The notes under the pieces: generated by a model
What the model was told of the DNA's origin: nothing
What the model saw: only the letters and a program-made list of their open reading frames with translations
Database searches by the model: none
Program-made: the position numbers and the translations under genes
Assembly: GCA_039619475.1 (NCBI GenBank)
Contig: CM077116.1
Span: 249,373,440 to 249,437,439, forward strand
Direction: 5' to 3'
From: Icerya purchasi
Taxonomy: Eukaryota > Arthropoda > Insecta > Hemiptera > Monophlebidae
Length of the DNA stretch: 64,000 nt
Shown here: positions 5,285-52,974 of the stretch, in pieces
Layout: the number at the start of each line of letters is the position of its first letter
Position numbering within the stretch: position 1 is the first letter of the stretch

Positions 5285-7800
5285 GTAAACTTGTTAAAAG
5301 ATAAAATAAATCCTTATAACTGGCAGGATCTGCTAGAGAAGAGAAGAGTTGAAGAAATAGTAACTAATCTAAAAGTAATATTTAATAAACTTTATGACGA
5401 TTGCAGATTTACAAGACAGACATAGAGGGAAAGGAGATGCAATCCTATTGCAGCTTGGATGAACAGAAAAATATTGAACTTCGTACATATTAGAGACCAA
5501 CACTACAAAAGATGTAAAGGGAATAATACTAATAGGAGATATAAAGAACTATATAAGAAATACAGGAAATTAGTAAAGCAAGAAATAAGGCAAGAAAAAG
5601 AAAAATATTACCAACAGGAATTACAAAAAGCGAAAAATAACATTAAAAAAACCTGGAAGATAATAGATCAAATAGTATGTAAAAAAAAAACTGCAATCAT
5701 AGATGAGGTTATAGGGGTGAACTTCGATGGATACCGGAATGCGGCTAATAAATTTCAAAATTACTATGTGGAGGATATAAAAAAAACGAAAACTGAAACA
5801 TAATTGTGGTATTAGCTTTATTAAGACCGACTATATTAATACAACGATTACGTCATTTTACATTCCACAAGCTACGAATGATGCGATAGAAACCATAATT
5901 AAAAAAATGAAGCCGAATAAAGCTCAATGGTACGGCGGTATCCGAGTGAAAGATGTAATTTCACACGTAAAAAAGCTTGCTCCATTGTTAACAAAAATAA
6001 TTAATGAATCGGTAAAAGAAGGTAAATTCCTCAAGGAGTTTTTAATAGGGATAATAAGACCAATATACAAAATCGGAGATAAAAACTCTGTGAAAACTAT
6101 AGAACAATTACATTAATTTCAATTATTGCGAAAGATTATGTAGGTCATCACCTTAAAATGTACCTGGAAGAGAACAATCTAATATTTCATAACCAATCTG
6201 GGTTTAGAAAGGGGAAATCTACGATAACACTGCTCGGGACATTTACATCTGATATAAATAAAGGGTTAGCATCCAGAAAACAATTTCTGGTAATTTTTTT
6301 AGTTCTTACTAAGGCTTTTGATTTAGTTGATAGGGAAATTTTGATAGAGTATTTAATTAAAATTTGCAATAACAGGGAAATTTCTCAATTGGTTTAGAGG
6401 TTATTTACATGAAATGGAATGCTTAGTGAAAGTTGGGAATGAATATAGCGATATAGGGAAAACGAAATATGGAGTAGGACAAGGAACTATATTAGCCCCG
6501 TTACTGTTTCTAATTAACCTGAACTCCGTCCAAAACTGTGTTACGAATGCCAAAATTTACCCATATGCCGACGATATTGCTCTGGTAATGGAACACCGAG
6601 ACGTAGAAATTGCGAAAAGAATGCTTCAAGAGGACTTGAATAAGGTCTGCAGATGGGTACACGGCAAAAAATTAGTAATAAATGCCACAAAAATCAAAAT
6701 TTATGTATGTAAGAGCATCAAGTAGATTTAGAAAGTTCATTCCCAAAATAGTATTGCGGAATGTAGATTGCCTTCATGGAGCGGAAGTTTGCTGTTGTGA
6801 CCCGATAGAAACGGTTGATAATTTTAAGTATCTTGGAATTACATTTGATAAGGAGTTAACATGGAGAGGTCACATTGAGAATATTGCGAGGAAAACCAGG
6901 CAGACACGATACCGGCTTTATACAAATTAAAACAGGTTATGAATTACAAAACCATGAGATTATATTTCGACTCATTAATAATGTATAGAATATCAGATAC
7001 GGAATTGAAATTTGTGGGGAGGCAAAAAAAAAAAAAAACAACGGAATTAAGGAAAATTAATAAGCTACAAAAAAGATGTTTAAAAATAATTTTATCGAAC
7101 TGGAGAAATACGAATCTCACAACGGATACTACTTTTGGTGGGATAATAATAAAGAAATGTCTCCAAAAATGTTTTTTTTTTTATTACAGTAAACTATTAA
7201 GATATAAAACAGAAAAAAGAATATTACCGACAAGGGAAAAGGTTTATGACAATAAAAACTATGACAAATTATCTATTATAAGACCTAAAGGGGTTAACAA
7301 TAAAATTGACAATGTTGAAGAGGAAATTTGAAGTCAAATTTTAGGTCACATACCAAAGGAAATTAAAGACGAAGACAATTTGAAAATATGAAAAGACAAA
7401 ATTAAAATTTGGTTGATAGCGTGGTGCAAAGATTGAGAAAATAATAGACGAAGGAAAGAAACAATGAGAATAATTATAAATAAGGTACATAAAAAATTAA
7501 ATAAGGTACATAAAAAAAAAAAAAAAAAATGCACGGTAGCTCCTTTCTTTAGCTGCATACCTTTTGGCTTAATATTGCTTTAGAATGTGTGTTGGGCATG
7601 AATGTATTTTTTTTTTAAATGAGATGTAATTCAGTGAAAATAAAAGCTAAAGTATAATTAAGTAATAGATATATAAGATCAATATAATAATGTGTTAGCA
7701 TTAAGATGTATCTATATTTGTGAATAAACGATATAATTATGTTGGGAACCCATAGACGGGCATTTGTCTTGTGGGACCCGCAAATTATTTAAAAAACAAA
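5285..7800 (+). pseudogene. Non-LTR retrotransposon relic with reverse transcriptase and 3' end
   Basis: A LINE broken into at least six frames. From about 5285 the linker region reads LLKDKINPYNWQDLLEKRR, then AWMNRKILNF and a Lys-rich helical stretch (5459-5803). Reverse transcriptase follows: GIIRPIYKIGDKNS (about 6045), NQSGFRKGKST (about 6190), a motif A relic LTKAFDLVD (about 6305), GVGQGTILAPLLFLIN (about 6470) and YADDIALV (about 6565). The post-polymerase thumb has FKYLGITFDKELTW and KLQKRCLKIIL (up to about 7330). The 3' region carries A-rich runs and a GACGGG...CTTGTGGG hairpin near 7752-7780. The endonuclease domain is missing, consistent with 5' truncation. The clade is probably CR1/Daphne-like, but I cannot be sure. 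It is not functional. Confidence 0.85.
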
Positions 7801-19941: not shown

Positions 19942-20277
19942 AGTAGATAGAAAATGTACGTTCTAGGAGAATAGCCAATCAGGAGCGAGTATTTAGTCCT
20001 GTGGCCCCGCCCCCTTTTACTCAGCTAATCAAGAGTCAAAAACATAATAAAATGACCACACCGTTTTTACATCAAACCCCCCCCCCATTAAGAGTTCAAC
20101 ACTGCAACGCCATGTTCTACTCCACTTGCTACATCTTCAACATTACAAACCAAAATCCATATATCTCAGCGTCCACCACACACAAATCAACCAACTGCAG
20201 TTTCTCCAAAATTCCTTCAAATTTTCCCTCGTTGTCCACCTCCTCCCCGTGCCGTTCCCCTTGTGCGCGTGTACAAT
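19942..20277 (+). repeat. Terminal segment of the left arm
   Basis: Non-repetitive outer end of the arm, the counterpart of 36713-37046. It contains the terminus, a GC-rich GGCCCCGCCCCC block near 20002-20013 and a 10-base C-run at about 20077-20086 (8 bases in the right arm). In a protein-primed element the replication origin and terminal-protein attachment site would lie at this end. That role is inferred. Confidence 0.6.
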
Positions 20278-21545
20278 CGATTAAATAATAATAATAATCT
20301 ACCAATTAATCGATTTTCCTTATTATATTTATTAGAAATAATTAAATATTCGCGATGTACCACACTTCTTCCCTACACAATCTTACATAGATCTTCGTTA
20401 TTATTATTACATGGTCCGCATTAAAATTTGAAAATTCACTATTTCGAGGGAAAAAAGGGGTAAAATCTCCGGAAACTGCTTAAAACGTTCGAATTTCGAT
20501 ACTTAGAACCCAAATTTTAAAAGATTTTTTTCTAGCACGTTCCCTTCTTACACTTTATTTTTAAAAAAAAATTGTAAAATCACATAATATTGCGATAGTA
20601 TTAACAGAGAAAGATGTGTGCGAGTGTACTGCAAGTTGTAATAAATCGAGAGGAACACGATGATGATGACGCGGTATCAATGAAGCTGTGCGAATACTAT
20701 CAACATTATTATTATTATTATTATTATACTTTGTTTTTACTTTACACAACATGGTGCACACGCACATTCCAGATCGCAATGAAAAGGAGGTCAGCGATGA
20801 ACTGTACGAATACTATCTACATTTGCTTTTACTTTACGCAACATTGTACACACACACACACACATTCGAGATCGTGATGAACAGGAGGTTAGCAGTGGAC
20901 CTGTACGAATACTATCAACATTATTATTATTACGCAATCGCATAAATCTTTTAAATTATTCCTCTAACGCGTATTGAAAATCAGGAACACCTCCTTGCTA
21001 ATCAATTAAATAATAATAATCTACCAATTAATCGATTTTCGTTATTATATTTATTAAAAATAATTAACTATTCGCAATGTACCGCGCTTTTCCCTCTACA
21101 TAATCTTACATAGATATTCGTTATTATTACATGGTTCACTGTCTTTAAAATTTGAAAATTCTTTATTCAGAGGGGAAAAAGGGGTAAAACCTACAGAAAC
21201 TGCTTAAAACGTTCGAATTTCGATACTTAGAACCCAAATTTTAAAGGAATTTTTTCTACCATGTTCCCTTCTTTCACTTTATTTTTAAAAAATTTTGTAA
21301 AATCGCATAATATTACGATAGTATTAATGGAGAAAGATGTGTTCGAGTGTACTGCAAGTTGTAATAAATCGAGAGGAACATGATGATGATGACGCGGTAT
21401 CAATGAAGCTATGCGAATACTATCTACATTATTATTATTATTATACTTTGTTTCTACCTTACGCAATATGAAATACTATCAATATTATTATTACGCAATC
21501 GCATAAATCTTTTAAATTAGTTCGTCTAACATCTATGGAAAATTG
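20278..21545 (+). repeat. Outer direct-repeat units, left arm (two copies, one hybrid)
   Basis: Two direct copies of a unit. Each includes a TTAAATAATAAT/ATCGATTTTC block, a conserved box of about 60 bp (20461-20520 and 21184-21245) with TTCGAATTTCGATACTTAGA, and tandem subrepeats of about 110 bp holding TTCGTACAGG, CATT and (AC)n/(ATT)n tracts. The boxes are 723 bp apart. The outer unit is a hybrid: outward of 20482 it matches the third right-arm unit, inward of 20521 the second. Confidence 0.85.
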
Positions 21546-21698
21546 CAATATTCCACTAATCAAATTAATAATTTATGAATAAATCGATTAATTGTTATTT
21601 TTTCTATTAAAAATAAATAATTAAATATACTAACTGCATCACACCTCCAAACGTTACCAAAAGGGATTAGATAAATGTAGTATCATAGAAAAAAGTGC

Positions 21699-21955
21699 TC
21701 AATTTAAACCAAAATCACTCTTTTCATACAAATTATACCATTTAGAGCTAAAATACACACATTTTAGTACAAAACATTGAATTTTAAAGGAAACAATCCA
21801 TTTTACATAAAAATATCCTCATTTTAGGTGTAAACCATCAATTTATGGTAAAATATCTCAATTTAATACAAATATCATCATTTTAGATAGAAAACGTCAA
21901 ATTTTAATGGAAAATAACCCATCCTGGGGATAAGCAGCAAATTTTACTACATACA
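21699..21955 (+). repeat. Degenerate array of about 20 bp period (left arm)
   Basis: ATTTTA-type words recur at 21740, 21761, 21781, 21800, 21821, 21841, 21861, 21880 and 21901, spaced 19-21 bp. Each is followed by a short AAAA/ATC element, so the loose consensus is ATTTTAnnTnnAAAnnATC. The array lies about 200 bp beyond the polymerase stop codon. The spacing is close to two DNA helical turns. Its function is unknown. Confidence 0.75.
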
Positions 21956-22081
21956 CACTCTTTAATTAAAATCAATATAATCTCTATACACTATAATTAA
22001 GTTTATAGAAACTATTTTAAACCCACACACATTCTTAAATCTAACAAATTAAAGAAATAAAAACAATTGTTAATAGAAAAT

Positions 22082-22087
22082 TTTATT
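22082..22087 (-). terminator. Polyadenylation signal of the left polymerase gene
   Basis: AATAAA on the minus strand, 66 bp past the stop codon. It is mirrored at 34071-34076. Confidence 0.55.
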
Positions 22088-22152
22088 ACATAGTAAAATT
22101 AAAAATATACATGTCTAAATTATACTTAATAATAATACACAGCTGCATGTAA

Positions 22153-25100
22153 TCATGCAATATACATATTTTTATCTAATATACACGCTCTTAGTTCGGC
22201 TAAAACATCATTAAACTTTTTACAGAATTTATTATACATAGAATTTCCATAAGCTATTGTATCTACATTATTACTACATATTATTCTTTTATCGTCATTA
22301 CCACTTAATACTACTTTATTATGTTCTAGGGTATACAGTATATGTTTATGACTTTGAATATTGTAATATGTCTTATAATTATCACATAATTTCCCACACA
22401 CACCATTCACACAATTATAATAATCTATGAAATTAAGTTCTTTCTTAATTATAGAAGATTGTACACCTTTACATTTTTTAATTTCTCTATCAATAATATT
22501 TATAGAATACATTTTTGGACGCAATCCAACAAATTCACTAATTGGAGTACTATTTAATTCATCCTTAAATACACCAAGCTTTTTTTTATTTTTTAGTGAA
22601 TAACATGGGTGACTTTTTGGATAATCACTTGTATCAAAATACTGAGCATTATCTTTAATATCTTTATAAAAATCAAGCGTTTTAAGTTCATAAATAAGTG
22701 AATCAGTATCACAGTATAAAAGATTAATATTCTTATACATTTTACTCATTATGTTGTAATGAAAATCAAACATTTTTAATTTGCTAATATCTAAAATAGA
22801 CATACCAATGTAAATAGGCTTATTAAATTTAATCGTTGAAGGATTTAAATGCACTGCAGCCAATAATGGTTGTTCACTAAATATTGTTCGATCCTTAAAA
22901 TTAATTTTTCCAACTAGTTTAGTAAATTTTACTTCGTTTATAATAAGCTGCATATTAATTCTATGCCTAACGTTTTCCATCATTTTACCAAAAACGCTGT
23001 TGTTCATAAGCTTCCAATAGTTCTTCTCAAACTCATTAGTAGCTTGTTGCCGCTGTAGAGTGTTTAAATCAATATAAGGCTTCAACCATGCTGACTGATT
23101 GAAACAAATGACTCGATGCACATGTTGTAGTTTTAGTCCTAATTCAATTGCCTGTTTAAGATTTCTGTAGTGAATAATATAATTGTACTTATTTTCTAAT
23201 GTATTAACTAATTTCACACATTTTCTAATTGATTTGGCTTCAGGGCATAGAGGTAAATCATTGTGTGCTAAATGTAAATCTACTGGATACTCCAAATCCA
23301 CATCGAGTACATAACCAATGGATCCATCATCAGCTATCTCCATAATATTTAATTCTATTATTTCTTTCTGACTAAGCCATCTGAAACCATTCATAGGAAG
23401 AGGTTCACTCATGGCCCAACCATAGAGGTTATTTGCATCCAAATATGCTATGAAAGTGTTATCTGTACCATTTCTTCCATCATTATCATCATTACTGTGA
23501 CTATTACTACAGCTGTTAGTGTATGAATTGTTCGCTCTGGCATAACGTTTCACACACTGACACATACCACCACGTATTCCAGCTTCAAAGAATAAAACCA
23601 TATCATAATCAGTTAGGAGCTCCAATTGAACCTTTGTCAACTTCAACATTGCTTGAAATGCCAATCCAGGAGCAGTAAAACTCCATGCAGGATCCAATTT
23701 GTAAATTTTATGGCAAACGCTTCTAAAGTTTTCAAAAACATCTGCTAATAGAAGCACATCTGTCTTTAGATATATATCACTATACTCCCCTAGTGTTTGA
23801 ACATTTAATGCATCCCACACATTTAATGCATGTGAGTAATCTTCTTCACTAATATTTGATTTTGTCAGGAAATTATAGAAATGCTCCTTTTCAGGCAAAC
23901 TTGTTTCTTCCAATTTTTCCAATGATGACACATATGAATAAGGGAAAACACCCTTTCTACGGAATAAAGGAAGTAAATCAGGCGATACAATGTTTCTAAT
24001 GGTATGATGAAGGGAACTATCGGGTAAATAACTAGCTAGCTTCTCAAGGCTTGATGCCATGAAACGGAATGTGTCAATGAATCGTATTTTCATTTTTTCT
24101 GAAATATGCTTTGAAAATGATATGTAGCGTTCTTCACTATTCGGTATCACCTCGATGTCCTGATCATCGTATGCCAAATCCTTGATAAATAAATGAGCGT
24201 CATATCCACTCAGATTATGAATAAATACAGGAACAAAGTTGGGAAGCTGGTATTCTAAATTACATTTTGAATGCGCTGCACCTCGAAATTTTCCGCTTAG
24301 ATGGTCATGATCTGCGACTTTATCATTATTTAGAGGTTCTTTACAAATGTGGCATAGCGATGAAGTATCATATTCTTCCAAATCCACAGGCGTCCACTGC
24401 AATGGAATGTTTTTCTGATAAATCTTTTCTATTTTTCGCACATCTTCTACTAACCAATCACAGAATATTTTAGTTGCATTATGGCCACGATACATTTTAG
24501 GCTCCAATGTAACATTAAAGCTGGAACTTTTTTCACATCTTGACACAATATAGTAGCAAAAGCTAAACGCTTCATGTTGCTGTATGGGGGTGGTACTACA
24601 TGTTTTTTCCGGCTTGTTTTGAATATCACAATATGAACCATCTTCCATGTGTTGCCGCTTACATGTCTGCATATTTCCATCCTGTTGCGGACTTTTTCGA
24701 CGCCTACCACCAATTTCTATACCATCATCACCATTATCACTAATAATTTCTCCATCATTAACATCATTATCACATGAGTCATCGTTTAGAGGCTTCAGGA
24801 TACACTCGATGTCAGCAAATATTACGAATGGTATAAATTCTTGCTGCTTATATTGTTGGAATTTCAATATTTTATTATTCTCCGTTGGCATAACAACTGT
24901 GGCAGGAGTATTGATGGAGCAATGTTGTATATGAGCCAGATACTTAGCATGGTCTTGAACATACCATAAGCAACGACGGCATATAAACATGCGATTATGA
25001 TTGTTGGTAATTTGACGTGATACTAGTTTACATAAGTTCTTTATCCAACAGTAATGTGATTTATCACCTTTGGTTATAAGCAGTAAATCAGTATGATCTT

Positions 25101-25860
25101 TTTGTTCAATCTTTGTGATTCGGAGGGGATATACATTATTTTTCTCATCCAAACCATATACATTAACAGATGTTTGGGGGTTATTCTTTTCAAATGTGGA
25201 CACATCGTCCAATGATGTAGGAAAAGATATACCACTCCAATTATATTTCTTTAACAATGATGTATTCCGCACATAATTGCTTGCATATTCTGGATGATTC
25301 ACCTTAATATATTTTGTCAACATTGAATATTTGAAACACATCTGATCATCGTTTTTCACATTAATAATAGCCTTTTTCGATGCAATACAGGATGGTAGTT
25401 GAATATACGATGATGCACGGCTTAGAACATTCCGATAGTTGAGACGAATTTCAAGATATTCGATTTTCTTTAATCTCCAACCAGATCCTGTTGCATGTTG
25501 AAGTCTATCAGCAAGACTAATAATTTTTCTGCAATCTTCCTTGTACCATGCAGAAATATCATCACCACGAATGAGTAACTGCGCATTGGTTGGGAAGTGA
25601 AATGGCATATCAATACAATTCACGAACCCAACTCCTCTGATGAATGAACATTGTAATGTTAGATTTACTTTTACTCCAACACCGATTCTTCTTTTAATTA
25701 TCTCGATCACTGTAGAAGTATTGTTAGACAAGTAATTTGCAATATCCATCTGACATTTATTATTGTTTATAATACGATATGTTGCAAAACGCTTGGAATA
25801 ACGCTTGCTGACATTTTGAATAGAAATATCATGTTGTACAGCTGCTGACGACATTTTCAT
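22153..25860 (-). CDS. polB: Family B DNA polymerase, protein-primed type (left copy)
   Basis: A single 1235-codon frame from the ATG at 25860; an in-frame upstream extension starts only at TTG (25878). The protein is identical to the right-arm copy. Numbered from the ATG: a C-x2-C...H-x3-C finger (about 294-314); exonuclease motifs FADIEC (D350, E352), HNLSGYD (D554) and Y697-xxx-D701; a treble-clef, endonuclease VII-like insert (CHIC at 503-506, DHDHLSGKFRG near 517-527, C533); polymerase motif A LDANNLYGWAM (D808), motif B NNSVFGKMMEN (about 953-963), motif C YCDTDS (1049-1054) and RPKMYS (1114-1119). An Asp/Asn/Ser-rich insert lies at about 360-430. The proofreading and polymerase catalytic residues are present, so it could be active, copying DNA from a protein primer in the nucleus. 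No terminal-protein gene is seen; in this family the primer domain may lie within the N-terminal region (inference). Confidence 0.95.
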   Translation of the reverse strand: MKMSSAAVQHDISIQNVSKRYSKRFATYRIINNNKCQMDIANYLSNNTSTVIEIIKRRIGVGVKVNLTLQCSFIRGVGFVNCIDMPFHFPTNAQLLIRGDDISAWYKEDCRKIISLADRLQHATGSGWRLKKIEYLEIRLNYRNVLSRASSYIQLPSCIASKKAIINVKNDDQMCFKYSMLTKYIKVNHPEYASNYVRNTSLLKKYNWSGISFPTSLDDVSTFEKNNPQTSVNVYGLDEKNNVYPLRITKIEQKDHTDLLLITKGDKSHYCWIKNLCKLVSRQITNNHNRMFICRRCLWYVQDHAKYLAHIQHCSINTPATVVMPTENNKILKFQQYKQQEFIPFVIFADIECILKPLNDDSCDNDVNDGEIISDNGDDGIEIGGRRRKSPQQDGNMQTCKRQHMEDGSYCDIQNKPEKTCSTTPIQQHEAFSFCYYIVSRCEKSSSFNVTLEPKMYRGHNATKIFCDWLVEDVRKIEKIYQKNIPLQWTPVDLEEYDTSSLCHICKEPLNNDKVADHDHLSGKFRGAAHSKCNLEYQLPNFVPVFIHNLSGYDAHLFIKDLAYDDQDIEVIPNSEERYISFSKHISEKMKIRFIDTFRFMASSLEKLASYLPDSSLHHTIRNIVSPDLLPLFRRKGVFPYSYVSSLEKLEETSLPEKEHFYNFLTKSNISEEDYSHALNVWDALNVQTLGEYSDIYLKTDVLLLADVFENFRSVCHKIYKLDPAWSFTAPGLAFQAMLKLTKVQLELLTDYDMVLFFEAGIRGGMCQCVKRYARANNSYTNSCSNSHSNDDNDGRNGTDNTFIAYLDANNLYGWAMSEPLPMNGFRWLSQKEIIELNIMEIADDGSIGYVLDVDLEYPVDLHLAHNDLPLCPEAKSIRKCVKLVNTLENKYNYIIHYRNLKQAIELGLKLQHVHRVICFNQSAWLKPYIDLNTLQRQQATNEFEKNYWKLMNNSVFGKMMENVRHRINMQLIINEVKFTKLVGKINFKDRTIFSEQPLLAAVHLNPSTIKFNKPIYIGMSILDISKLKMFDFHYNIMSKMYKNINLLYCDTDSLIYELKTLDFYKDIKDNAQYFDTSDYPKSHPCYSLKNKKKLGVFKDELNSTPISEFVGLRPKMYSINIIDREIKKCKGVQSSIIKKELNFIDYYNCVNGVCGKLCDNYKTYYNIQSHKHILYTLEHNKVVLSGNDDKRIICSNNVDTIAYGNSMYNKFCKKFNDVLAELRACILDKNMYIA

Positions 25861-25979
25861 AAATAATTTTAAATCCAATTACAAATTAAACACAAGACAA
25901 ACTTGAATGCAGGAGAAAACACGTCTGATCACTTCAATGGTCAGCACATAAATCAACAAATACCACCATTGACACATTG

Positions 25980-25986
25980 TTTTATA
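25980..25986 (-). promoter_or_regulatory. Candidate TATA box, left polymerase gene
   Basis: TATAAAA on the minus strand, about 120 bp upstream of the ATG, identical in position to 30172-30178. The two promoters face away from the loop. Confidence 0.4.
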
Positions 25987-26499
25987 CTAAATTAATACAA
26001 AGAGTTGATGCAAAATAACTAATATTAATTAAAATGAGTATAACTTAAGCATAGGAGAAAGACATCTATAATCACTTGTTCTGGCACAGTGGATGATGAT
26101 GATGATGATGCTGATGACGACGGTAATCTAGCACGTTCACCTTCATCTACCTTCACTTTTCCCTTCACCACTACCCCCATCCGCCATCGAGCAACATCGA
26201 TAGAAAATTCTAGAAAATGCTACCGCAATCTGTGTGTGCGCACACTCACGTCTCCGACTCCCGCTCTACATCAATGAACACAATGAGTACAAGCAGCTTG
26301 AGCGTACTATCCCCAGATAAAAAAACTGTTGCTGCTGTAGCTGGTGATGGAGGTGATGGTGTTGCTAGTGCTTGAGGAAGAGGAAAGGAGTTCTCAAATA
26401 CTAGTTGGAAAAAAAAAATTGCTTTACATTTTCTGTACGCACCCATGCATACATATTTGCTATTATTACACAGATCGCGTTAATTTTTTTTTAAATAAT

Positions 26500-27108
26500 T
26501 ATTTCCTCTAACGTGTATTGAAAATCAGGAACACCTCCTCGCTAATCGATTAAATAATAATAATCTACTAATAAATCGATTTTCATTATTATATTTATTA
26601 GAAATAATTAAATACTCGCTAATGTACCATGCTTCTTCCCTACACAATCCTACATAGATATTCGTCATTATTATTATCACACGATTCATGCTAAAATTTG
26701 AAAATTCGTTATTCCAAGGGGGAAAAGGGGTAAAATCTCCGGAAACTGCTTAAAACGTTCGAATTTCGATACTTAGAACCCAAATTTTAAAGGAATTTTT
26801 TCCAGCATGTTCCCTTCTTACACTTTATTTTTAAAAAAAAATTGTAAAATCGCGTAATATTACACTAGTATTAATACAGAAAGACGTGTGCGAGTGTACT
26901 GCAAGTCGTAATAAATCGAGAGGAACACGATTATGACGCAGTTATCAATGAAGCTGTGCGAATACTACCGATATTATTATTATTATTATACTTTGTTTTT
27001 ACTTTACACAACATAGTACACACGCACATTCCAGATCGCAATGAAAAGGAGGTTAGCGATGAACTTGTACGAATACTATCTACATTTGCTTTTACTTTAT
27101 GCAACATT

Positions 27109-27142
<34 letters not shown>

Positions 27143-27640
27143 GAAACTGCGATTAATAGGAGGTTAGCAGTGGACCTGTACGAATACTATCAACACTATT
27201 ATTATTACGCAATCGCATAAATCTTTTAAATTAGTTCCTCTAACGCGTATTGAAAATCAGGAACACCTCCTCGCTAATCAATTAAATAATAATAATCTAC
27301 TAATAAATCGATTTTCGTTATTATATTTATTAAAAATAATTAAATACTCGCGATGTACCGCGCTTTTTCCCTACACAATCTTACATAGATATTCGTTATT
27401 ATTACATGGTCCGCGTTAAAATTTGAAAATTCATTATTCTGGGGGATGGAAGGGGTAAAATCTCCAGAGACTGCTTAAAACGTTCGAATTTCGATACTTA
27501 GAACCCAAATTTTAAAGGAATTTTTTCTAACATGTTCCCGTCTTACACTTTATTTTTAAAAAATTTGTAAAAAGACGCGTGCGAGTGTACTGCAAGTTGT
27601 AATAAATCGAGAGGAATATGATTATGACGAGGTTATCAAT
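26500..27640 (+). repeat. Inner direct-repeat units, left arm
   Basis: Further copies of the same unit on the inner side of the polymerase gene, in the same orientation as 20278-21545, with conserved boxes at 26731-26790 and 27456-27515 (725 bp apart). The gene is therefore flanked by direct repeats within each arm. A (CA)n tract at about 27112-27140 generates a meaningless Thr/His open frame. Confidence 0.85.
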
Positions 27641-28034
27641 GATTCCAGTGCTCTGTTCTCATCTAATCTACAGAAAAAAAGAAAAAAGAAAATATAATAG
27701 GAAGGACTGTATGTGAAAATAGTGTCCAGCTCTAATGTCGTTACGTCTATGGTATAGCGATTGAGAATTCATAATTAACTCGATTGCAGTAAGAGTCGTT
27801 TTAAATTGATCTTCAATGAATTTCAGGAGGCAGCGAGTGAATGTTCTTTCCCAACATTAACAGCGGATTTATTAGTGGTGTTAAATCATTCAATTATTAT
27901 TGTATTTTACACTACTAATGGAACACATCGTAAATTTAAATCAATTAAAAATTTTAATAACAATAAGCAAAAATTTCGATCATACTTGTGTAGATCACCA
28001 GCTGACTGCTGCTTCTGCTCAGAATACATTTTTT

Positions 28035-28123
28035 CATTTCCCTACGATATCTCTCATATTACACTCGGAAATAATTTACAGCAGGAGTAATAATTTATTT
28101 TTATAAACTATATCGGAAAAAGA
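28035..28123. other. Loop of the giant palindrome (89 bp)
   Basis: The only stretch that is not symmetric. Exact pairing stops at 28034/28124. Just inside, TTTTTTCATTTCCCTACGATAT on the left still resembles the right side read in reverse complement (a T-run, TTTCC, GATAT), so about 20 bp more of decayed symmetry may exist. No gene. Confidence 0.8.
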
Positions 28124-28517
28124 AAAAAATGTATTCTGAGCAGAAGCAGCAGTCAGCTGGTGATCTACACAAGTATGATCGAAATTTTTGCTTATTGTTA
28201 TTAAAATTTTTAATTGATTTAAATTTACGATGTGTTCCATTAGTAGTGTAAAATACAATAATAATTGAATGATTTAACACCACTAATAAATCCGCTGTTA
28301 ATGTTGGGAAAGAACATTCACTCGCTGCCTCCTGAAATTCATTGAAGATCAATTTAAAACGACTCTTACTGCAATCGAGTTAATTATGAATTCTCAATCG
28401 CTATACCATAGACGTAACGACATTAGAGCTGGACACTATTTTCACATACAGTCCTTCCTATTATATTTTCTTTTTTCTTTTTTTCTGTAGATTAGATGAG
28501 AACAGAGCACTGGAATC

Positions 28518-29015
28518 ATTGATAACCTCGTCATAATCATATTCCTCTCGATTTATTACAACTTGCAGTACACTCGCACGCGTCTTTTTACAAATTTTTT
28601 AAAAATAAAGTGTAAGACGGGAACATGTTAGAAAAAATTCCTTTAAAATTTGGGTTCTAAGTATCGAAATTCGAACGTTTTAAGCAGTCTCTGGAGATTT
28701 TACCCCTTCCATCCCCCAGAATAATGAATTTTCAAATTTTAACGCGGACCATGTAATAATAACGAATATCTATGTAAGATTGTGTAGGGAAAAAGCGCGG
28801 TACATCGCGAGTATTTAATTATTTTTAATAAATATAATAACGAAAATCGATTTATTAGTAGATTATTATTATTTAATTGATTAGCGAGGAGGTGTTCCTG
28901 ATTTTCAATACGCGTTAGAGGAACTAATTTAAAAGATTTATGCGATTGCGTAATAATAATAGTGTTGATAGTATTCGTACAGGTCCACTGCTAACCTCCT
29001 ATTAATCGCAGTTTC

Positions 29016-29049
<34 letters not shown>

Positions 29050-29658
29050 AATGTTGCATAAAGTAAAAGCAAATGTAGATAGTATTCGTACAAGTTCATC
29101 GCTAACCTCCTTTTCATTGCGATCTGGAATGTGCGTGTGTACTATGTTGTGTAAAGTAAAAACAAAGTATAATAATAATAATAATATCGGTAGTATTCGC
29201 ACAGCTTCATTGATAACTGCGTCATAATCGTGTTCCTCTCGATTTATTACGACTTGCAGTACACTCGCACACGTCTTTCTGTATTAATACTAGTGTAATA
29301 TTACGCGATTTTACAATTTTTTTTTAAAAATAAAGTGTAAGAAGGGAACATGCTGGAAAAAATTCCTTTAAAATTTGGGTTCTAAGTATCGAAATTCGAA
29401 CGTTTTAAGCAGTTTCCGGAGATTTTACCCCTTTTCCCCCTTGGAATAACGAATTTTCAAATTTTAGCATGAATCGTGTGATAATAATAATGACGAATAT
29501 CTATGTAGGATTGTGTAGGGAAGAAGCATGGTACATTAGCGAGTATTTAATTATTTCTAATAAATATAATAATGAAAATCGATTTATTAGTAGATTATTA
29601 TTATTTAATCGATTAGCGAGGAGGTGTTCCTGATTTTCAATACACGTTAGAGGAAATA
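28518..29658 (-). repeat. Inner direct-repeat units, right arm
   Basis: Mirror of 26500-27640, with conserved boxes at 28643-28702 and 29368-29427. A (GT)n tract lies at about 29018-29046. Confidence 0.85.
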
Positions 29659-30171
29659 ATTATTTAAAAAAAAATTAACGCGATCTGTGTAATAATAGCA
29701 AATATGTATGCATGGGTGCGTACAGAAAATGTAAAGCAATTTTTTTTTTCCAACTAGTATTTGAGAACTCCTTTCCTCTTCCTCAAGCACTAGCAACACC
29801 ATCACCTCCATCACCAGCTACAGCAGCAACAGTTTTTTTATCTGGGGATAGTACGCTCAAGCTGCTTGTACTCATTGTGTTCATTGATGTAGAGCGGGAG
29901 TCGGAGACGTGAGTGTGCGCACACACAGATTGCGGTAGCATTTTCTAGAATTTTCTATCGATGTTGCTCGATGGCGGATGGGGGTAGTGGTGAAGGGAAA
30001 AGTGAAGGTAGATGAAGGTGAACGTGCTAGATTACCGTCGTCATCAGCATCATCATCATCATCATCCACTGTGCCAGAACAAGTGATTATAGATGTCTTT
30101 CTCCTATGCTTAAGTTATACTCATTTTAATTAATATTAGTTATTTTGCATCAACTCTTTGTATTAATTTAG

Positions 30172-30178
30172 TATAAAA
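30172..30178 (+). promoter_or_regulatory. Candidate TATA box, right polymerase gene
   Basis: TATAAAA 120 bp upstream of the ATG at 30298. No transcription start has been measured; the call rests on sequence and spacing only. Confidence 0.4.
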
Positions 30179-30297
30179 CAATGTGTCAATGGTGGTATTT
30201 GTTGATTTATGTGCTGACCATTGAAGTGATCAGACGTGTTTTCTCCTGCATTCAAGTTTGTCTTGTGTTTAATTTGTAATTGGATTTAAAATTATTT

Positions 30298-33200
30298 ATG
30301 AAAATGTCGTCAGCAGCTGTACAACATGATATTTCTATTCAAAATGTCAGCAAGCGTTATTCCAAGCGTTTTGCAACATATCGTATTATAAACAATAATA
30401 AATGTCAGATGGATATTGCAAATTACTTGTCTAACAATACTTCTACAGTGATCGAGATAATTAAAAGAAGAATCGGTGTTGGAGTAAAAGTAAATCTAAC
30501 ATTACAATGTTCATTCATCAGAGGAGTTGGGTTCGTGAATTGTATTGATATGCCATTTCACTTCCCAACCAATGCGCAGTTACTCATTCGTGGTGATGAT
30601 ATTTCTGCATGGTACAAGGAAGATTGCAGAAAAATTATTAGTCTTGCTGATAGACTTCAACATGCAACAGGATCTGGTTGGAGATTAAAGAAAATCGAAT
30701 ATCTTGAAATTCGTCTCAACTATCGGAATGTTCTAAGCCGTGCATCATCGTATATTCAACTACCATCCTGTATTGCATCGAAAAAGGCTATTATTAATGT
30801 GAAAAACGATGATCAGATGTGTTTCAAATATTCAATGTTGACAAAATATATTAAGGTGAATCATCCAGAATATGCAAGCAATTATGTGCGGAATACATCA
30901 TTGTTAAAGAAATATAATTGGAGTGGTATATCTTTTCCTACATCATTGGACGATGTGTCCACATTTGAAAAGAATAACCCCCAAACATCTGTTAATGTAT
31001 ATGGTTTGGATGAGAAAAATAATGTATATCCCCTCCGAATCACAAAGATTGAACAAAAAGATCATACTGATTTACTGCTTATAACCAAAGGTGATAAATC
31101 ACATTACTGTTGGATAAAGAACTTATGTAAACTAGTATCACGTCAAATTACCAACAATCATAATCGCATGTTTATATGCCGTCGTTGCTTATGGTATGTT
31201 CAAGACCATGCTAAGTATCTGGCTCATATACAACATTGCTCCATCAATACTCCTGCCACAGTTGTTATGCCAACGGAGAATAATAAAATATTGAAATTCC
31301 AACAATATAAGCAGCAAGAATTTATACCATTCGTAATATTTGCTGACATCGAGTGTATCCTGAAGCCTCTAAACGATGACTCATGTGATAATGATGTTAA
31401 TGATGGAGAAATTATTAGTGATAATGGTGATGATGGTATAGAAATTGGTGGTAGGCGTCGAAAAAGTCCGCAACAGGATGGAAATATGCAGACATGTAAG
31501 CGGCAACACATGGAAGATGGTTCATATTGTGATATTCAAAACAAGCCGGAAAAAACATGTAGTACCACCCCCATACAGCAACATGAAGCGTTTAGCTTTT
31601 GCTACTATATTGTGTCAAGATGTGAAAAAAGTTCCAGCTTTAATGTTACATTGGAGCCTAAAATGTATCGTGGCCATAATGCAACTAAAATATTCTGTGA
31701 TTGGTTAGTAGAAGATGTGCGAAAAATAGAAAAGATTTATCAGAAAAACATTCCATTGCAGTGGACGCCTGTGGATTTGGAAGAATATGATACTTCATCG
31801 CTATGCCACATTTGTAAAGAACCTCTAAATAATGATAAAGTCGCAGATCATGACCATCTAAGCGGAAAATTTCGAGGTGCAGCGCATTCAAAATGTAATT
31901 TAGAATACCAGCTTCCCAACTTTGTTCCTGTATTTATTCATAATCTGAGTGGATATGACGCTCATTTATTTATCAAGGATTTGGCATACGATGATCAGGA
32001 CATCGAGGTGATACCGAATAGTGAAGAACGCTACATATCATTTTCAAAGCATATTTCAGAAAAAATGAAAATACGATTCATTGACACATTCCGTTTCATG
32101 GCATCAAGCCTTGAGAAGCTAGCTAGTTATTTACCCGATAGTTCCCTTCATCATACCATTAGAAACATTGTATCGCCTGATTTACTTCCTTTATTCCGTA
32201 GAAAGGGTGTTTTCCCTTATTCATATGTGTCATCATTGGAAAAATTGGAAGAAACAAGTTTGCCTGAAAAGGAGCATTTCTATAATTTCCTGACAAAATC
32301 AAATATTAGTGAAGAAGATTACTCACATGCATTAAATGTGTGGGATGCATTAAATGTTCAAACACTAGGGGAGTATAGTGATATATATCTAAAGACAGAT
32401 GTGCTTCTATTAGCAGATGTTTTTGAAAACTTTAGAAGCGTTTGCCATAAAATTTACAAATTGGATCCTGCATGGAGTTTTACTGCTCCTGGATTGGCAT
32501 TTCAAGCAATGTTGAAGTTGACAAAGGTTCAATTGGAGCTCCTAACTGATTATGATATGGTTTTATTCTTTGAAGCTGGAATACGTGGTGGTATGTGTCA
32601 GTGTGTGAAACGTTATGCCAGAGCGAACAATTCATACACTAACAGCTGTAGTAATAGTCACAGTAATGATGATAATGATGGAAGAAATGGTACAGATAAC
32701 ACTTTCATAGCATATTTGGATGCAAATAACCTCTATGGTTGGGCCATGAGTGAACCTCTTCCTATGAATGGTTTCAGATGGCTTAGTCAGAAAGAAATAA
32801 TAGAATTAAATATTATGGAGATAGCTGATGATGGATCCATTGGTTATGTACTCGATGTGGATTTGGAGTATCCAGTAGATTTACATTTAGCACACAATGA
32901 TTTACCTCTATGCCCTGAAGCCAAATCAATTAGAAAATGTGTGAAATTAGTTAATACATTAGAAAATAAGTACAATTATATTATTCACTACAGAAATCTT
33001 AAACAGGCAATTGAATTAGGACTAAAACTACAACATGTGCATCGAGTCATTTGTTTCAATCAGTCAGCATGGTTGAAGCCTTATATTGATTTAAACACTC
33101 TACAGCGGCAACAAGCTACTAATGAGTTTGAGAAGAACTATTGGAAGCTTATGAACAACAGCGTTTTTGGTAAAATGATGGAAAACGTTAGGCATAGAAT

Positions 33201-34005
33201 TAATATGCAGCTTATTATAAACGAAGTAAAATTTACTAAACTAGTTGGAAAAATTAATTTTAAGGATCGAACAATATTTAGTGAACAACCATTATTGGCT
33301 GCAGTGCATTTAAATCCTTCAACGATTAAATTTAATAAGCCTATTTACATTGGTATGTCTATTTTAGATATTAGCAAATTAAAAATGTTTGATTTTCATT
33401 ACAACATAATGAGTAAAATGTATAAGAATATTAATCTTTTATACTGTGATACTGATTCACTTATTTATGAACTTAAAACGCTTGATTTTTATAAAGATAT
33501 TAAAGATAATGCTCAGTATTTTGATACAAGTGATTATCCAAAAAGTCACCCATGTTATTCACTAAAAAATAAAAAAAAGCTTGGTGTATTTAAGGATGAA
33601 TTAAATAGTACTCCAATTAGTGAATTTGTTGGATTGCGTCCAAAAATGTATTCTATAAATATTATTGATAGAGAAATTAAAAAATGTAAAGGTGTACAAT
33701 CTTCTATAATTAAGAAAGAACTTAATTTCATAGATTATTATAATTGTGTGAATGGTGTGTGTGGGAAATTATGTGATAATTATAAGACATATTACAATAT
33801 TCAAAGTCATAAACATATACTGTATACCCTAGAACATAATAAAGTAGTATTAAGTGGTAATGACGATAAAAGAATAATATGTAGTAATAATGTAGATACA
33901 ATAGCTTATGGAAATTCTATGTATAATAAATTCTGTAAAAAGTTTAATGATGTTTTAGCCGAACTAAGAGCGTGTATATTAGATAAAAATATGTATATTG
34001 CATGA
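30298..34005 (+). CDS. polB: Family B DNA polymerase, protein-primed type (right copy)
   Basis: Second complete copy, identical in protein sequence to the left one. The ATG at 30298 (MKMSS...) is chosen because the longer frame begins with TTG; a second ATG two codons on has a better Kozak context (A at -3). Exonuclease motifs I-III, the endonuclease VII-like treble clef between Exo I and Exo II, and polymerase motifs A, B and C are all intact. At 1235 residues it is at the long end for Polinton-type polymerases, partly because of the Asp/Asn-rich insert. It is transcribed away from the loop, divergently from the left copy. Complete identity over such a length means recent duplication, ongoing arm-to-arm conversion, or both. 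Read-through across the loop would give a self-complementary RNA. Confidence 0.95.
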   Translation: MKMSSAAVQHDISIQNVSKRYSKRFATYRIINNNKCQMDIANYLSNNTSTVIEIIKRRIGVGVKVNLTLQCSFIRGVGFVNCIDMPFHFPTNAQLLIRGDDISAWYKEDCRKIISLADRLQHATGSGWRLKKIEYLEIRLNYRNVLSRASSYIQLPSCIASKKAIINVKNDDQMCFKYSMLTKYIKVNHPEYASNYVRNTSLLKKYNWSGISFPTSLDDVSTFEKNNPQTSVNVYGLDEKNNVYPLRITKIEQKDHTDLLLITKGDKSHYCWIKNLCKLVSRQITNNHNRMFICRRCLWYVQDHAKYLAHIQHCSINTPATVVMPTENNKILKFQQYKQQEFIPFVIFADIECILKPLNDDSCDNDVNDGEIISDNGDDGIEIGGRRRKSPQQDGNMQTCKRQHMEDGSYCDIQNKPEKTCSTTPIQQHEAFSFCYYIVSRCEKSSSFNVTLEPKMYRGHNATKIFCDWLVEDVRKIEKIYQKNIPLQWTPVDLEEYDTSSLCHICKEPLNNDKVADHDHLSGKFRGAAHSKCNLEYQLPNFVPVFIHNLSGYDAHLFIKDLAYDDQDIEVIPNSEERYISFSKHISEKMKIRFIDTFRFMASSLEKLASYLPDSSLHHTIRNIVSPDLLPLFRRKGVFPYSYVSSLEKLEETSLPEKEHFYNFLTKSNISEEDYSHALNVWDALNVQTLGEYSDIYLKTDVLLLADVFENFRSVCHKIYKLDPAWSFTAPGLAFQAMLKLTKVQLELLTDYDMVLFFEAGIRGGMCQCVKRYARANNSYTNSCSNSHSNDDNDGRNGTDNTFIAYLDANNLYGWAMSEPLPMNGFRWLSQKEIIELNIMEIADDGSIGYVLDVDLEYPVDLHLAHNDLPLCPEAKSIRKCVKLVNTLENKYNYIIHYRNLKQAIELGLKLQHVHRVICFNQSAWLKPYIDLNTLQRQQATNEFEKNYWKLMNNSVFGKMMENVRHRINMQLIINEVKFTKLVGKINFKDRTIFSEQPLLAAVHLNPSTIKFNKPIYIGMSILDISKLKMFDFHYNIMSKMYKNINLLYCDTDSLIYELKTLDFYKDIKDNAQYFDTSDYPKSHPCYSLKNKKKLGVFKDELNSTPISEFVGLRPKMYSINIIDREIKKCKGVQSSIIKKELNFIDYYNCVNGVCGKLCDNYKTYYNIQSHKHILYTLEHNKVVLSGNDDKRIICSNNVDTIAYGNSMYNKFCKKFNDVLAELRACILDKNMYIA

Positions 34006-34070
34006 TTACATGCAGCTGTGTATTATTATTAAGTATAATTTAGACATGTATATTTTTAATTTTACTATGT

Positions 34071-34076
34071 AATAAA
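34071..34076 (+). terminator. Polyadenylation signal of the right polymerase gene
   Basis: AATAAA, 66 bp downstream of the TGA at 34003-34005. The stop codon itself lies in a small inverted repeat, TGCATG-ATTA-CATGCA. Confidence 0.55.
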
Positions 34077-34202
34077 ATTTTCTATTAACAATTGTTTTTA
34101 TTTCTTTAATTTGTTAGATTTAAGAATGTGTGTGGGTTTAAAATAGTTTCTATAAACTTAATTATAGTGTATAGAGATTATATTGATTTTAATTAAAGAG
34201 TG

Positions 34203-34459
34203 TGTATGTAGTAAAATTTGCTGCTTATCCCCAGGATGGGTTATTTTCCATTAAAATTTGACGTTTTCTATCTAAAATGATGATATTTGTATTAAATTGA
34301 GATATTTTACCATAAATTGATGGTTTACACCTAAAATGAGGATATTTTTATGTAAAATGGATTGTTTCCTTTAAAATTCAATGTTTTGTACTAAAATGTG
34401 TGTATTTTAGCTCTAAATGGTATAATTTGTATGAAAAGAGTGATTTTGGTTTAAATTGA
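34203..34459 (-). repeat. Degenerate array of about 20 bp period (right arm)
   Basis: Mirror image of 21699-21955, read as TAAAAT words every 19-21 bp downstream of the right polymerase gene. Confidence 0.75.
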
Positions 34460-34612
34460 GCACTTTTTTCTATGATACTACATTTATCTAATCCCTTTTG
34501 GTAACGTTTGGAGGTGTGATGCAGTTAGTATATTTAATTATTTATTTTTAATAGAAAAAATAACAATTAATCGATTTATTCATAAATTATTAATTTGATT
34601 AGTGGAATATTG

Positions 34613-36712
34613 CAATTTTCCATAGATGTTAGACGAACTAATTTAAAAGATTTATGCGATTGCGTAATAATAATATTGATAGTATTTCATATTGCGTAAG
34701 GTAGAAACAAAGTATAATAATAATAATAATGTAGATAGTATTCGCATAGCTTCATTGATACCGCGTCATCATCATCATGTTCCTCTCGATTTATTACAAC
34801 TTGCAGTACACTCGAACACATCTTTCTCCATTAATACTATCGTAATATTATGCGATTTTACAAAATTTTTTAAAAATAAAGTGAAAGAAGGGAACATGGT
34901 AGAAAAAATTCCTTTAAAATTTGGGTTCTAAGTATCGAAATTCGAACGTTTTAAGCAGTTTCTGTAGGTTTTACCCCTTTTTCCCCTCTGAATAAAGAAT
35001 TTTCAAATTTTAAAGACAGTGAACCATGTAATAATAACGAATATCTATGTAAGATTATGTAGAGGGAAAAGCGCGGTACATTGCGAATAGTTAATTATTT
35101 TTAATAAATATAATAACGAAAATCGATTAATTGGTAGATTATTATTATTTAATTGATTAGCAAGGAGGTGTTCCTGATTTTCAATACGCGTTAGAGGAAT
35201 AATTTAAAAGATTTATGCGATTGCGTAATAATAATAATGTTGATAGTATTCGTACAGGTCCACTGCTAACCTCCTGTTCATCACGATCTCGAATGTGTGT
35301 GTGTGTGTGTACAATGTTGCGTAAAGTAAAAGCAAATGTAGATAGTATTCGTACAGTTCATCGCTGACCTCCTTTTCATTGCGATCTGGAATGTGCGTGT
35401 GCACCATGTTGTGTAAAGTAAAAACAAAGTATAATAATAATAATAATAATAATGTTGATAGTATTCGCACAGCTTCATTGATACCGCGTCATCATCATCG
35501 TGTTCCTCTCGATTTATTACAACTTGCAGTACACTCGCACACATCTTTCTCTGTTAATACTATCGCAATATTATGTGATTTTACAGTTTTTTTTTAAAAA
35601 TAAAGTGTAAGAAGGGAACGTGCTAGAAAAAAATCTTTTAAAATTTGGGTTCTAAGTATCGAAATTCGAACGTTTTTAGCAGTTTCCAGAGATTTTACCC
35701 CTTTTACCCCTCTGAATAAGGAATTTTCAAATTTTAAAGACAGTGAACCATGTAATAATAGTGAATATCTATGTAAGATTGTATAGGGGGAAAAGCGCGG
35801 TACATTGCGAATAGTTAATTATTTTTTAATAAATATAATAACGAAAATTGATTAATTGGTAGATTATTATTATTATTATTATTATTTAATTGATTAGCGA
35901 GGAGGTGTTCCTGATTTTCACTACGCGTTAGAGGAACTAATTTAAAAGATTTAACCAATCTGTGTAATAATAATGTTGATAGTATTTCCCCGCTAGCATC
36001 CTGTTCATCATGATTAGAAATGTGCGTGCGTGCATGTGAGGTTACGTACAGAAAAACAATGTATAATAATGTAAATAGTATTTGAACAGGTCCACCGCTA
36101 GCCTCCTATTAATCGCAGTTTTGAATGTGCGTGTGTGTGTGTGTGTGTGTGTACAATGTTGCGTAAAGTAAAAGCAAATATAGATAGTATTCGTACAAGT
36201 TCATCGCTGACCTCCTTTTCATTGCGATCTGGAATGTGCATGCATACAATGTTGCGTAAGGTAGAAACAAAGTATAATAATAATAATGTAGATAGTATTC
36301 GTACTGGATCATTGATAACTGCGTCATAATCTTGTTCCTCTCGATTTATTATGACTTGCAGTACACTCGCACACGTCTTTCTCTGTTAATACTAGTGTAA
36401 TATTACGCGATTTTACAAATTTTTTTTAAAAATAAAGTGTAAGAAGGGAACATGCTAGAAAAAATTCCTTTAAAATTTGGGTTCTAAGTATCGAAATTCG
36501 AACGTTTTAAGCAGTTTCCGGAGATTTTACCCCTTTTTTCCCTCGAAATAGTGAATTTTCAAATTTTAATGCGGACCATGTAATAATAATAACGAAGATC
36601 TATGTAAGATTGTGTAGGGAAGAAGTGTGGTACATCGCGAATATTTAATTATTTCTAATAAATATAATAAGGAAAATCGATTAATTGGTAGATTATTATT
36701 ATTATTTAATCG
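34613..36712 (-). repeat. Outer direct-repeat units, right arm (three copies)
   Basis: Three direct units with conserved boxes at 34914-34974, 35639-35698 and 36471-36530 (spacings 725 and 832 bp). The middle-to-outer interval of 832 bp is missing from the left arm. Subrepeats of about 110 bp carrying ATAGTATTCGTACAG and a (GT)n or (ATA)n tract occur within each unit. Confidence 0.85.
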
Positions 36713-37046
36713 ATTGTACACGCGCACAAGGGGAACGGCACGGGGAGGAGGTGGACAACGAGGGAAAATTTGAAGGAATTTTGGAGAAACTGCAGTTGGT
36801 TGATTTGTGTGTGGTGGACGCTGAGATATATGGATTTTGGTTTGTAATGTTGAAGATGTAGCAAGTGGAGTAGAACATGGCGTTGCAGTGTTGAACTCTT
36901 AATGGGGGGGGTTTGATGTAAAAACGGTGTGGTCATTTTATTATGTTTTTGACTCTTGATTAGCTGAGTAAAAGGGGGCGGGGCCACAGGACTAAATACT
37001 CGCTCCTGATTGGCTATTCTCCTAGAACGTACATTTTCTATCTACT
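36713..37046 (-). repeat. Terminal segment of the right arm
   Basis: Counterpart of 19942-20277, ending in CTATCTACT. It contains an 8-base G-run at about 36904-36911 (10 in the left arm) and the GGGGGCGGGGCC block. Confidence 0.6.

Positions 37047-51636: not shown

Positions 51637-51640
<4 letters not shown>
50861..51640. other. Intergenic, no gene recognised
   Basis: A/G-rich sequence with an unassigned basic frame at 51289-51534. Confidence 0.35.

Positions 51641-51725
<85 letters not shown>
51637..51725. repeat. (TA)n microsatellite
   Basis: Nearly uninterrupted TA dinucleotides over about 85 bp. A second, shorter tract lies at about 52308-52332. Confidence 0.95.
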
Positions 51726-51731
<6 letters not shown>

Positions 51732-51929: not shown

Positions 51930-52260
51930 GCTTATCACGTGAATTTTTTACCGTAATTTCCAGTTTTCTTGCATCATGTTCTGGAGTTAGTTATTACATC
52001 GCTTGCAAAAACATACATAGTGTGGGTATGTTCTACTGACGTTTATAACCTTTCTGTCTGAGTTTAGTAATTTTATTGCACGTTCTAACGTTGTAAAGAA
52101 TTTTTCACAGAGTGTCTTTTACACCTTTTAATACTGGCAATGTTGGTGTTTCTTTGTACAGTCTAATGCTAATTGCGGTAGAGTTATGTATATTAGCCAA
52201 AATGTCATTTTGTAGTTTCTCCAAACCGCTTGCTTGAACTATTGACCATATATACATATA
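51930..52260 (-). pseudogene. Unassigned degraded coding remnant
   Basis: On the minus strand one frame reads GLEKLQNDILANIHNSTAIS and continues IRLYKETPTLPVLKGVKDTL; a shift of frame then reads FTTLERAIKLLNSDRKVI and HYVCFCKRC. The composition, and the continuation of sense across a frameshift, suggest an old coding sequence. The CxCxxC end hints at a zinc-binding module. I do not recognise the family. Confidence 0.3.
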
Positions 52261-52974
52261 AATTTATATACATATGTGTACCATATAAATGTATATGCAT
52301 ATGTGTACCATATATATATATATATATGTATATATTGAATTGAATGGCTTTTCGAAATTTACAAATCATAGCTATAGTGACAGATTCTTTTATTTTTGAA
52401 TTACAGTTAGTGTAAGTGATATATTGTACTATATTTACGGCGCAAACTTGCCTGTTCTATTGGGTTTTTGTTGGTGTAATGTTATTTCGAGTTTGTTTAT
52501 TGTTATTCTCGTAGCTTATAAATTCTGCAGTTTTTCAGATCTCTTTTGTCTTCCTTTTTTGTATAGCAAAATTATGAGTGCACTTTTCCGTGGTGATGGT
52601 ATATTGTTTCCTTTAATGCATCGAGATGAATGTGTACGTCAATTCCTCTTTTCAAAAGACTTAACATCTTCACCATTACTGGGGCTATTCTATTCTTTCT
52701 CTCATTTTATTTACCGAATAGTGTTTCAGTTTTCAATAATTCCCATATATTATTTTTACTAGCAAAGTGTACTGTAATGGAACAGGGGTCCGTACAAATA
52801 TTGATATCAGTACGCAATGGCTTATGAATGAATTACTTCATCCTTATCTTTAATTTCTTTTTGAAAAATCATTATAGACGGCTGTTACGACCTAATATTT
52901 TTGATCCTTTATTGGCTTCCATAAACTCCGGAATTTTTCAGTCGTTGTATTATATTCTTAAATTATCTTTCGTC
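52261..52974. other. Intergenic, no gene recognised
   Basis: The hydrophobic frame at 52424-52762 is not recognised and lies in T-rich sequence. Confidence 0.35.

Follow-up and report, generated by a model that had tools for sequence, protein, structure and literature searches.

A family of palindromic Polinton-like elements with paired, outward-pointing polymerase genes in the genome of Icerya purchasi

A 64,000-nucleotide stretch of the genome of the hemipteran insect Icerya purchasi (C2:249373440-249437439, C2 being contig CM077116.1), which we call the window, contains a 17.1-kb palindrome at 19942-37046, the features of which are collected in Table 1. Each arm carries an identical, outward-pointing open reading frame (ORF) of 1241 amino acids (aa), the polymerase and exonuclease motifs of which, read by eye, we take to be those of family B DNA polymerases (PolB below). 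On either side of the PolB ORF each arm has direct repeats of about 1 kb that are 90% identical, and the difference of 0.83 kb between the arms is accounted for by subterminal repeat sequence that the left arm lacks. A global alignment of the two arms shows a single substitution and two gaps, of 832 and 2 bp; at the constant coordinate sum of 56158, 7750 of the 8093 left-arm positions match, one exact run reaching 7462 bp. Local BLAST, which matches non-equivalent units of the subterminal repeats to one another, finds more differences than the global alignment, with 99.6% over 7757 columns and 93.4% over the outer 998. The element begins with AGTAGATAG and ends with CTATCTACT, termini of the AG...CT type, beyond which the symmetry is absent and the two flanks differ, and it is bordered by a 6-bp direct duplication, AGCGAA. 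The original prediction had described this palindrome with its 8.1- and 8.9-kb arms and 89-bp loop, its exact ends and its duplication, and had interpreted the whole as an integrated Polinton-type element with the layout of an inverted dimer; on all these points it is borne out, the AG...CT ends, the 6-bp duplication and a PolB of apparently protein-primed type being in keeping with that assignment.

The window copy is not alone. The genome searched comprises 1,103,370,081 bases in 41 contigs, of which C1 and C2 account for 601,656,059 and 497,304,701 bases, respectively; the published assembly combines HiFi reads with Hi-C and places 99.95% on two chromosomes (PMC11183206). With the terminal 1 kb as query (best 40 of 1389 candidates scored), matches over at least 976 bp occur at no fewer than 20 places: eighteen of these make up nine inverted pairs, a further one is on a small contig and the last on C1. 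The two without a partner (E10/E11) are counted as one copy met by two contigs, because they agree in duplication sequence and in spacer orientation and their arms are 99.97% identical. Family 1 then consists of at least ten copies including the window copy (E1), all palindromic. Nine of the ten have perfect 6-bp duplications, the remaining one matching at five of six positions; the AGTAGATAG terminus is present at both ends of all ten, as well as of one copy of a second subfamily; and the 200-bp flanks of the family-1 copies show no mutual similarity. The nine measurable copies span, end to end, 17.1 kb (window), 19.3-19.6 kb (six copies), 20.5 kb (E6) and 24.3 kb (E8, with a gap). All 20 family-1 PolB places among the matches listed fall inside the ten palindromic copies.

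The centre of the element is likewise common to the family. A spacer of about 53 bp is found by symmetry scan in E2, E3, E5-E9 and, reversed, in E10/E11 (eight of the ten copies), and by eye it is also kept, reversed, in E4, where about 0.3 kb of one adjoining arm is lost. Apart from this spacer the inverted repeats span the entire family-1 element, and the Polinton arrangement of short repeats around a unique gene block is absent. The spacer is missing only from the window copy, in which the left arm reaches arm position 8920 and the right arm starts at 9021, the two sides of the junction overlapping by 12 bp. In its relatives the arms extend about 0.8-0.9 kb further, to the common centre, the opposite of an arm that continues past 28034 into other genes and has no palindromic copies, a finding that the original prediction had named as contrary to itself. 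Since the window copy has a central deletion relative to the other members, its 89-bp loop reads, on sequence comparison, as right-arm sequence left without a partner, the scar of an asymmetric deletion and not the family's own loop. We have rejected the idea that it represents the loop of a template switch, and a single snap-back accident at this locus, in which the end of a parent element was doubled, does not agree with at least ten palindromic copies of which the one in the window is a centrally deleted member. Two further mirrored sequences were encountered on C2. At C2:37825000-37854900 there is a nested mirrored array with a tandem repeat of about 1022 bp in matching number on both sides and with the terminus present; considered as a PolB-less derivative, it was not counted as a clean insertion, the sequence outside the termini being mirrored as well. 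The other, at C2:143290000-143299900, is a relative in which a 1.8-kb inverted repeat surrounds a 1.2-kb one.

The arms of individual copies resemble each other closely. For a 4821-bp core including PolB, compared in all ten copies, the arm-arm differences in E1 to E9 and then E10/E11 number 0, 2, 2, 0, 1, 2, 5, 0, 2 and 0, and those between copies 2-13. In a tree of the first 8590 bp from seven copies (E1, E2 and E6 being excluded for their rearranged arms) partner arms are sisters in six of the seven, with ultrafast-bootstrap values of at least 95 in five and of 78 in E4. Similarly, 76 private substitutions in these seven copies are present in both arms and 22 in one arm; E9 contributes 45 of the 76, and without it the counts are 31 and 17. 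The arms of E8 show no substitution relative to one another, yet they differ from every other copy in the set of seven by at least 30; for E9 the corresponding figures are six and at least 43. Four PolB pairs (C1:578151490, C2:353511123, C2:434791515 and C2:389059043), compared for the kind and number of their stops, have the same in both arms, and E6 has a stop in the left PolB only. The palindrome, the family and the homogenisation of arms are matters of direct observation.

Palindromic organisation extends beyond family 1. With the window PolB as query (best 37 of 4058 candidate places scored), the 20 family-1 places are accompanied by 17 that are about 90% identical, and together with the PolB of a relative as query (best 55 of 1711) at least 82 distinct places are obtained. 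Among these, close neighbours (<30 kb) are oriented (-,+) in 31 cases, (+,+) in one and (+,-) in one, and in 14 of the 19 (-,+) pairs with both members scored by the relative's query the two scores are identical. Nineteen places are unpaired, two of them being the halves of E10/E11 and six having an integrase gene 7-13.5 kb away on the same strand; two of the remaining 11, C1:169600812 (-) and C1:169652846 (+), stand 52 kb apart. The second subfamily, the PolB of which is 90% identical to that of family 1, was examined in one copy, which is palindromic, 19437 bp long and flanked by the duplication TATGTG, with the same terminus and with outer arms 100% identical over 2663 bp. Of the part of its outer arm that was compared, only the first ~263 bp (83%) and a stretch into PolB (89%) align with family 1. 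In this copy the centre, at C1:60289900-60291600, is non-palindromic over about 0.56 kb and contains what by eye is a GC-rich run, as compared with the ~53-bp spacer of family 1. The terminus pattern, with up to three mismatches allowed, occurs at 348 sites in the genome (177 forward, 171 reverse; control 0), and the first 100 of these include 36 (+,-) pairs and two others, with a median length of 19.6 kb and a range of 5.7-39.3 kb. Spans of 17-21.5 kb are found in 23 of the 36, and at least 13 hold two PolB genes. As for the proposed genome search for termini and parent, termini and palindromic copies are plentiful, and no non-palindromic parent containing the window arm is among the matches listed in the searches made.

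Table 1. Components of the palindromic element in window coordinates
Feature	Position	Strand	Basis or remark
Left target-site duplication AGCGAA	19936..19941	.	sequence comparison
Left arm, 8093 bp, starts AGTAGATAG	19942..28034	+	BLAST and global alignment
Terminal ~263 bp	19942..20204	+	83% alike in one second-subfamily copy
Subterminal direct repeat, outer copy	20275..21302	+	90% to 26544-27572
Subterminal direct repeat, inner copy	26544..27572	+	
PolB ORF, 1241 aa	22153..25878	-	reads toward left terminus
12-bp overlap	28023..28034	.	junction of central deletion
89-bp loop	28035..28123	.	unpaired right-arm sequence
Right arm, 8923 bp, ends CTATCTACT	28124..37046	-	
Second PolB ORF, identical	30280..34005	+	reads toward right terminus
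832-bp subterminal repeat, right arm only	35677..36508	.	edges uncertain within repeats; BLAST places it ~200 bp further out
Right target-site duplication AGCGAA	37047..37052	.	

We regard PolB as a protein-primed polymerase of the Polinton type, the priming itself being predicted, because it is homologous to polymerases encoded in contigs with integrase and because phi29 polymerase takes the first nine places among the PDB matches of a low-confidence structure model (residues 337-1241). In Pfam the window PolB obtains a sub-threshold match to Endonuclease_7 and a weaker one to a zinc finger, with no polymerase named; DNA_pol_B_2 leaves it unmatched and matches two of nine aligned sequences, all nine of which are matched by Endonuclease_7 at E up to 1. 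PHROGs matches are mainly to endonuclease VII, and an endonuclease VII-like stretch lies at residues ~506-541 of the protein (window 30280-34005). Searches with PolB gave no match in NCBIfam and no polymerase among PDB sequences, and IMG/VR contained no match for the single protein or for one motif; with the PolB alignment as query it yielded two relatives. PolB relatives, 27-54% identical by segment, are encoded by 13 of 14 small public contigs carrying the motif; one has an integrase ORF beside PolB, a second an integrase domain fused to a phospholipase-like domain, and in a third there is an ATPase-like ORF, the match of which falls below the Pfam cut-offs. An IMG/VR contig of 17.4 kb has a single PolB adjoining an integrase, and in the 14.7 kb of it examined no inverted repeat exceeds 37 bp. 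Outside this genome the relatives are thus not visibly palindromic, most contigs being too short to tell. Short contigs with this type of PolB are carried by bacterial and archaeal bins, probably, at a guess, as eukaryotic or viral contamination.

The genome does not lack integrases. The integrase of a relative finds 134 rve-integrase places (E up to 0.001, ~30% identity), mostly open frames of ~330 aa, some of them possibly from elements of another type; no palindromic PolB pair has any of the 134 within 25 kb of it. Nor is there an integrase ORF in the arms read (the left arm of E3, ORFs of at least 90 aa, and the window, at least 80 aa, with no spliced-gene prediction), where besides PolB no ORF exceeds 113 aa and hence none is of transposase size or stands out as a capsid, protease or packaging ATPase, the short ORFs not having been searched for homology. 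The six places that combine PolB with integrase have the PolB gene pointing at the integrase; in the palindromes it points at the terminus, and therefore the palindromes are not simply the doubled PolB ends of ordinary elements of this kind. Close integrase pairs number eight in (-,+) orientation, each with equal scores, and three in (+,+); the equal scores constitute weak evidence, as identical scores are common among single places too. The (-,+) pairs are located on C2 at 253537520/253550280, 18396166/18410018, 367629056/367644569, 115853065/115866688, 167080701/167093457 and 107089191/107102112, and on C1 at 150372752/150396221 and 322082478/322089803. Lying away from the PolB pairs, these eight are possibly integrase-bearing palindromes.

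How could such an element propagate? Its normal form appears to be two arms of ~9.8 kb, each with a terminus, subterminal repeats and an outward PolB, around the ~53-bp spacer. In the explanation that we favour, and hold to be probable without regarding it as settled, this is a Polinton-derived palindromic family copied through hairpins, its arms being kept alike at replication and its integrase supplied in trans, with the window copy as a member that has lost its centre. The protein-primed PolB would start at the terminus, of which the terminal ~263 bp, to judge from their conservation, likely serve as origin and integrase-binding end, and would displace one strand. The displaced strand would then fold back over ~9.8 kb with the spacer as its loop, so rebuilding a double-stranded terminus, and copying from this rebuilt end round the loop would restore the full palindrome. 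The observed likeness of the arms would be established at this stage, mismatches being corrected while the arms are paired. Finally, an integrase, most simply from ordinary Polintons of the same genome, would insert the product; the 6-bp duplications and the integrase genes of the genome are both observed, and it is the lack of an integrase ORF in the arms and of any of the 134 matches within 25 kb of a PolB pair that leads us to infer supply in trans. As for the founding inverted dimer, a strand switch by the polymerase on a Polinton-like parent is its probable source. A host-driven origin by single-strand annealing is also possible, by analogy with yeast, in which inverted repeats can yield inverted dimers and fold-backs by this route (PMC6103520).

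Among the alternatives, the one to be taken most seriously, even if we think it unlikely, supposes the same palindromic family with ordinary replication, the arms being kept alike after insertion by gene conversion, as in the long palindromes of sex chromosomes. The shared private substitutions and near-identical arms fit it equally well, which counts against the hairpin route as a necessary explanation, and the four PolB pairs with matching stops are as expected if a stop had arisen in one arm and then been copied. However, arm-specific insertions and deletions of about 0.1-0.8 kb and the arm-specific stop of E6 persist, and gene conversion leaves the end-to-end palindromic shape of the subfamilies unexplained. 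Very little probability attaches to the idea that an inverted dimer of a Polinton end, formed once long ago, is now mobile as an ordinary duplex whose arms evolve independently: it accounts for the common spacer and arms, but predicts that arms group by spacer side, whereas they group by copy in six of the seven tested. It is about equally improbable that a DNA transposon of the cut-and-paste kind, its inverted repeats being very long in the style of Foldback or Mutator-like elements, carries PolB as cargo. Mutator-like elements do include members with long inverted repeats (PMC3310237), yet the 6-bp duplication, the AGT... end and PolB are Polinton traits (PMC8097293), and the arm read has no transposase-sized ORF besides PolB. 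Hardly credible is an artefact of assembly or sequencing from fold-over reads. Palindromes do trouble assembly, two of the ten copies meeting gaps or contig ends, but the symmetry stops at the same terminal sequence, the flanks differ, the 6-bp duplications match across each copy, and arms and spacer recur at unrelated loci; the original prediction had likewise dismissed a read fold-over, a view that these observations support.

Several observations nevertheless weigh against replication through hairpins as we propose it. This analysis of genome sequence revealed neither an extrachromosomal hairpin nor a product of replication, and with no integrase ORF in the arm read the autonomy of the element is not demonstrable. 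The mean predicted local distance difference test score (pLDDT) of the PolB model is 52.7, and inside the young family 1 PolB is without purifying selection, with 20 nonsynonymous and two synonymous changes and one stop against a neutral expectation of 73% nonsynonymous. Arm-specific insertions and deletions in E1, E2, E4 and E6 imply that homogenisation of the arms is not continuous. In the core, the arm-arm difference of E3 ties with the smallest between-copy difference (2 and 2), and one arm of E7 is nearer to the right arm of E6 (3) than to its own partner (5); in the tree E3 stands unresolved at the base, with six differences between its arms and five between one of them and E4. Eleven unpaired PolB places are without explanation, and the gaps or contig ends met by E8 and E10/E11 belong here too. 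A bolder proposal, plausible to us but falling short of probable, is that the family represents a class of animal transposon palindromic over its whole length by necessity, in which a ~10-kb hairpin lets the arms proofread each other and the genes be repaired every round, with several subfamilies (348 terminus sites) that borrow the integrase of ordinary Polintons, the inverted integrase pairs forming a second branch.

Hairpin replication has precedents in adenovirus panhandles, yeast hairpin plasmids and rolling-hairpin viruses. In the symmetric adenovirus recombinants (SYREC) a protein-primed genome has the same end on both sides of a palindrome; these are rare laboratory variants, whereas the element here is a propagating family. 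Kikuchi is said to have described in 1985 hairpin or palindromic derivatives of a yeast linear killer plasmid, a protein-primed linear replicon that can take the form of a perfect hairpin; this derivative is reportedly cytoplasmic, in contrast to an integrated element with many copies and more than one subfamily. The rolling hairpin of parvoviruses and self-complementary adeno-associated virus (AAV) are similar in replicating via hairpins and in having a self-folding genome; parvoviruses and AAV involve short terminal hairpins or engineered vectors, with no PolB of their own. Polintons, or Mavericks, are the nearest in size (15-20 kb), AGT-starting ends, 6-bp duplication and protein-primed-type PolB, but here there are two PolB copies, and ORFs for integrase, capsid, protease and ATPase were not seen in the arms read. 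Inverted repeats of 134 intact vertebrate Mavericks measure 46-1447 bp, while the present element is nearly all inverted repeat (~9.8 kb each), and its end, AGTAGA, is one letter off the AGTAGT of Mavericks (PMC8097293). Bidnaviruses acquired PolB and inverted repeats from a Polinton, and the parts of the source consulted describe no whole-length palindrome for them or for Teratorn (PMC4061559). Among the open-licence papers listed in searches for palindromic or long-repeat Polintons and similar elements, which cover part of the matching papers, no title or abstract opening describes a palindromic Polinton, and maverick, polinton, palindrom-, inverted and DNA transposon do not occur in the main text of PMC11183206.

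The remainder of the window contains, in the flanks, broken ORFs that by eye alone are reverse-transcriptase-like (5426-7331 and 57341-59010), and an AT repeat of 46 units at 51637-51728 with a related array at 52248-52335.

In chromosomes, long palindromes tend to be unstable, yet in this genome such a palindrome looks to be the usual state of an element that has been successful. That relatives elsewhere in the genome share the form suggests that the mirror shape belongs to the way in which the element is copied and is no single accident. If the hairpin route is true, one gene and two ends are enough for a protein-primed element, as a natural self-complementary genome with mutually correcting arms, and Polinton replication would become testable in an insect amenable to rearing. 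For Icerya purchasi itself, the family supplies long inverted repeats that recur within a genome of two chromosomes.

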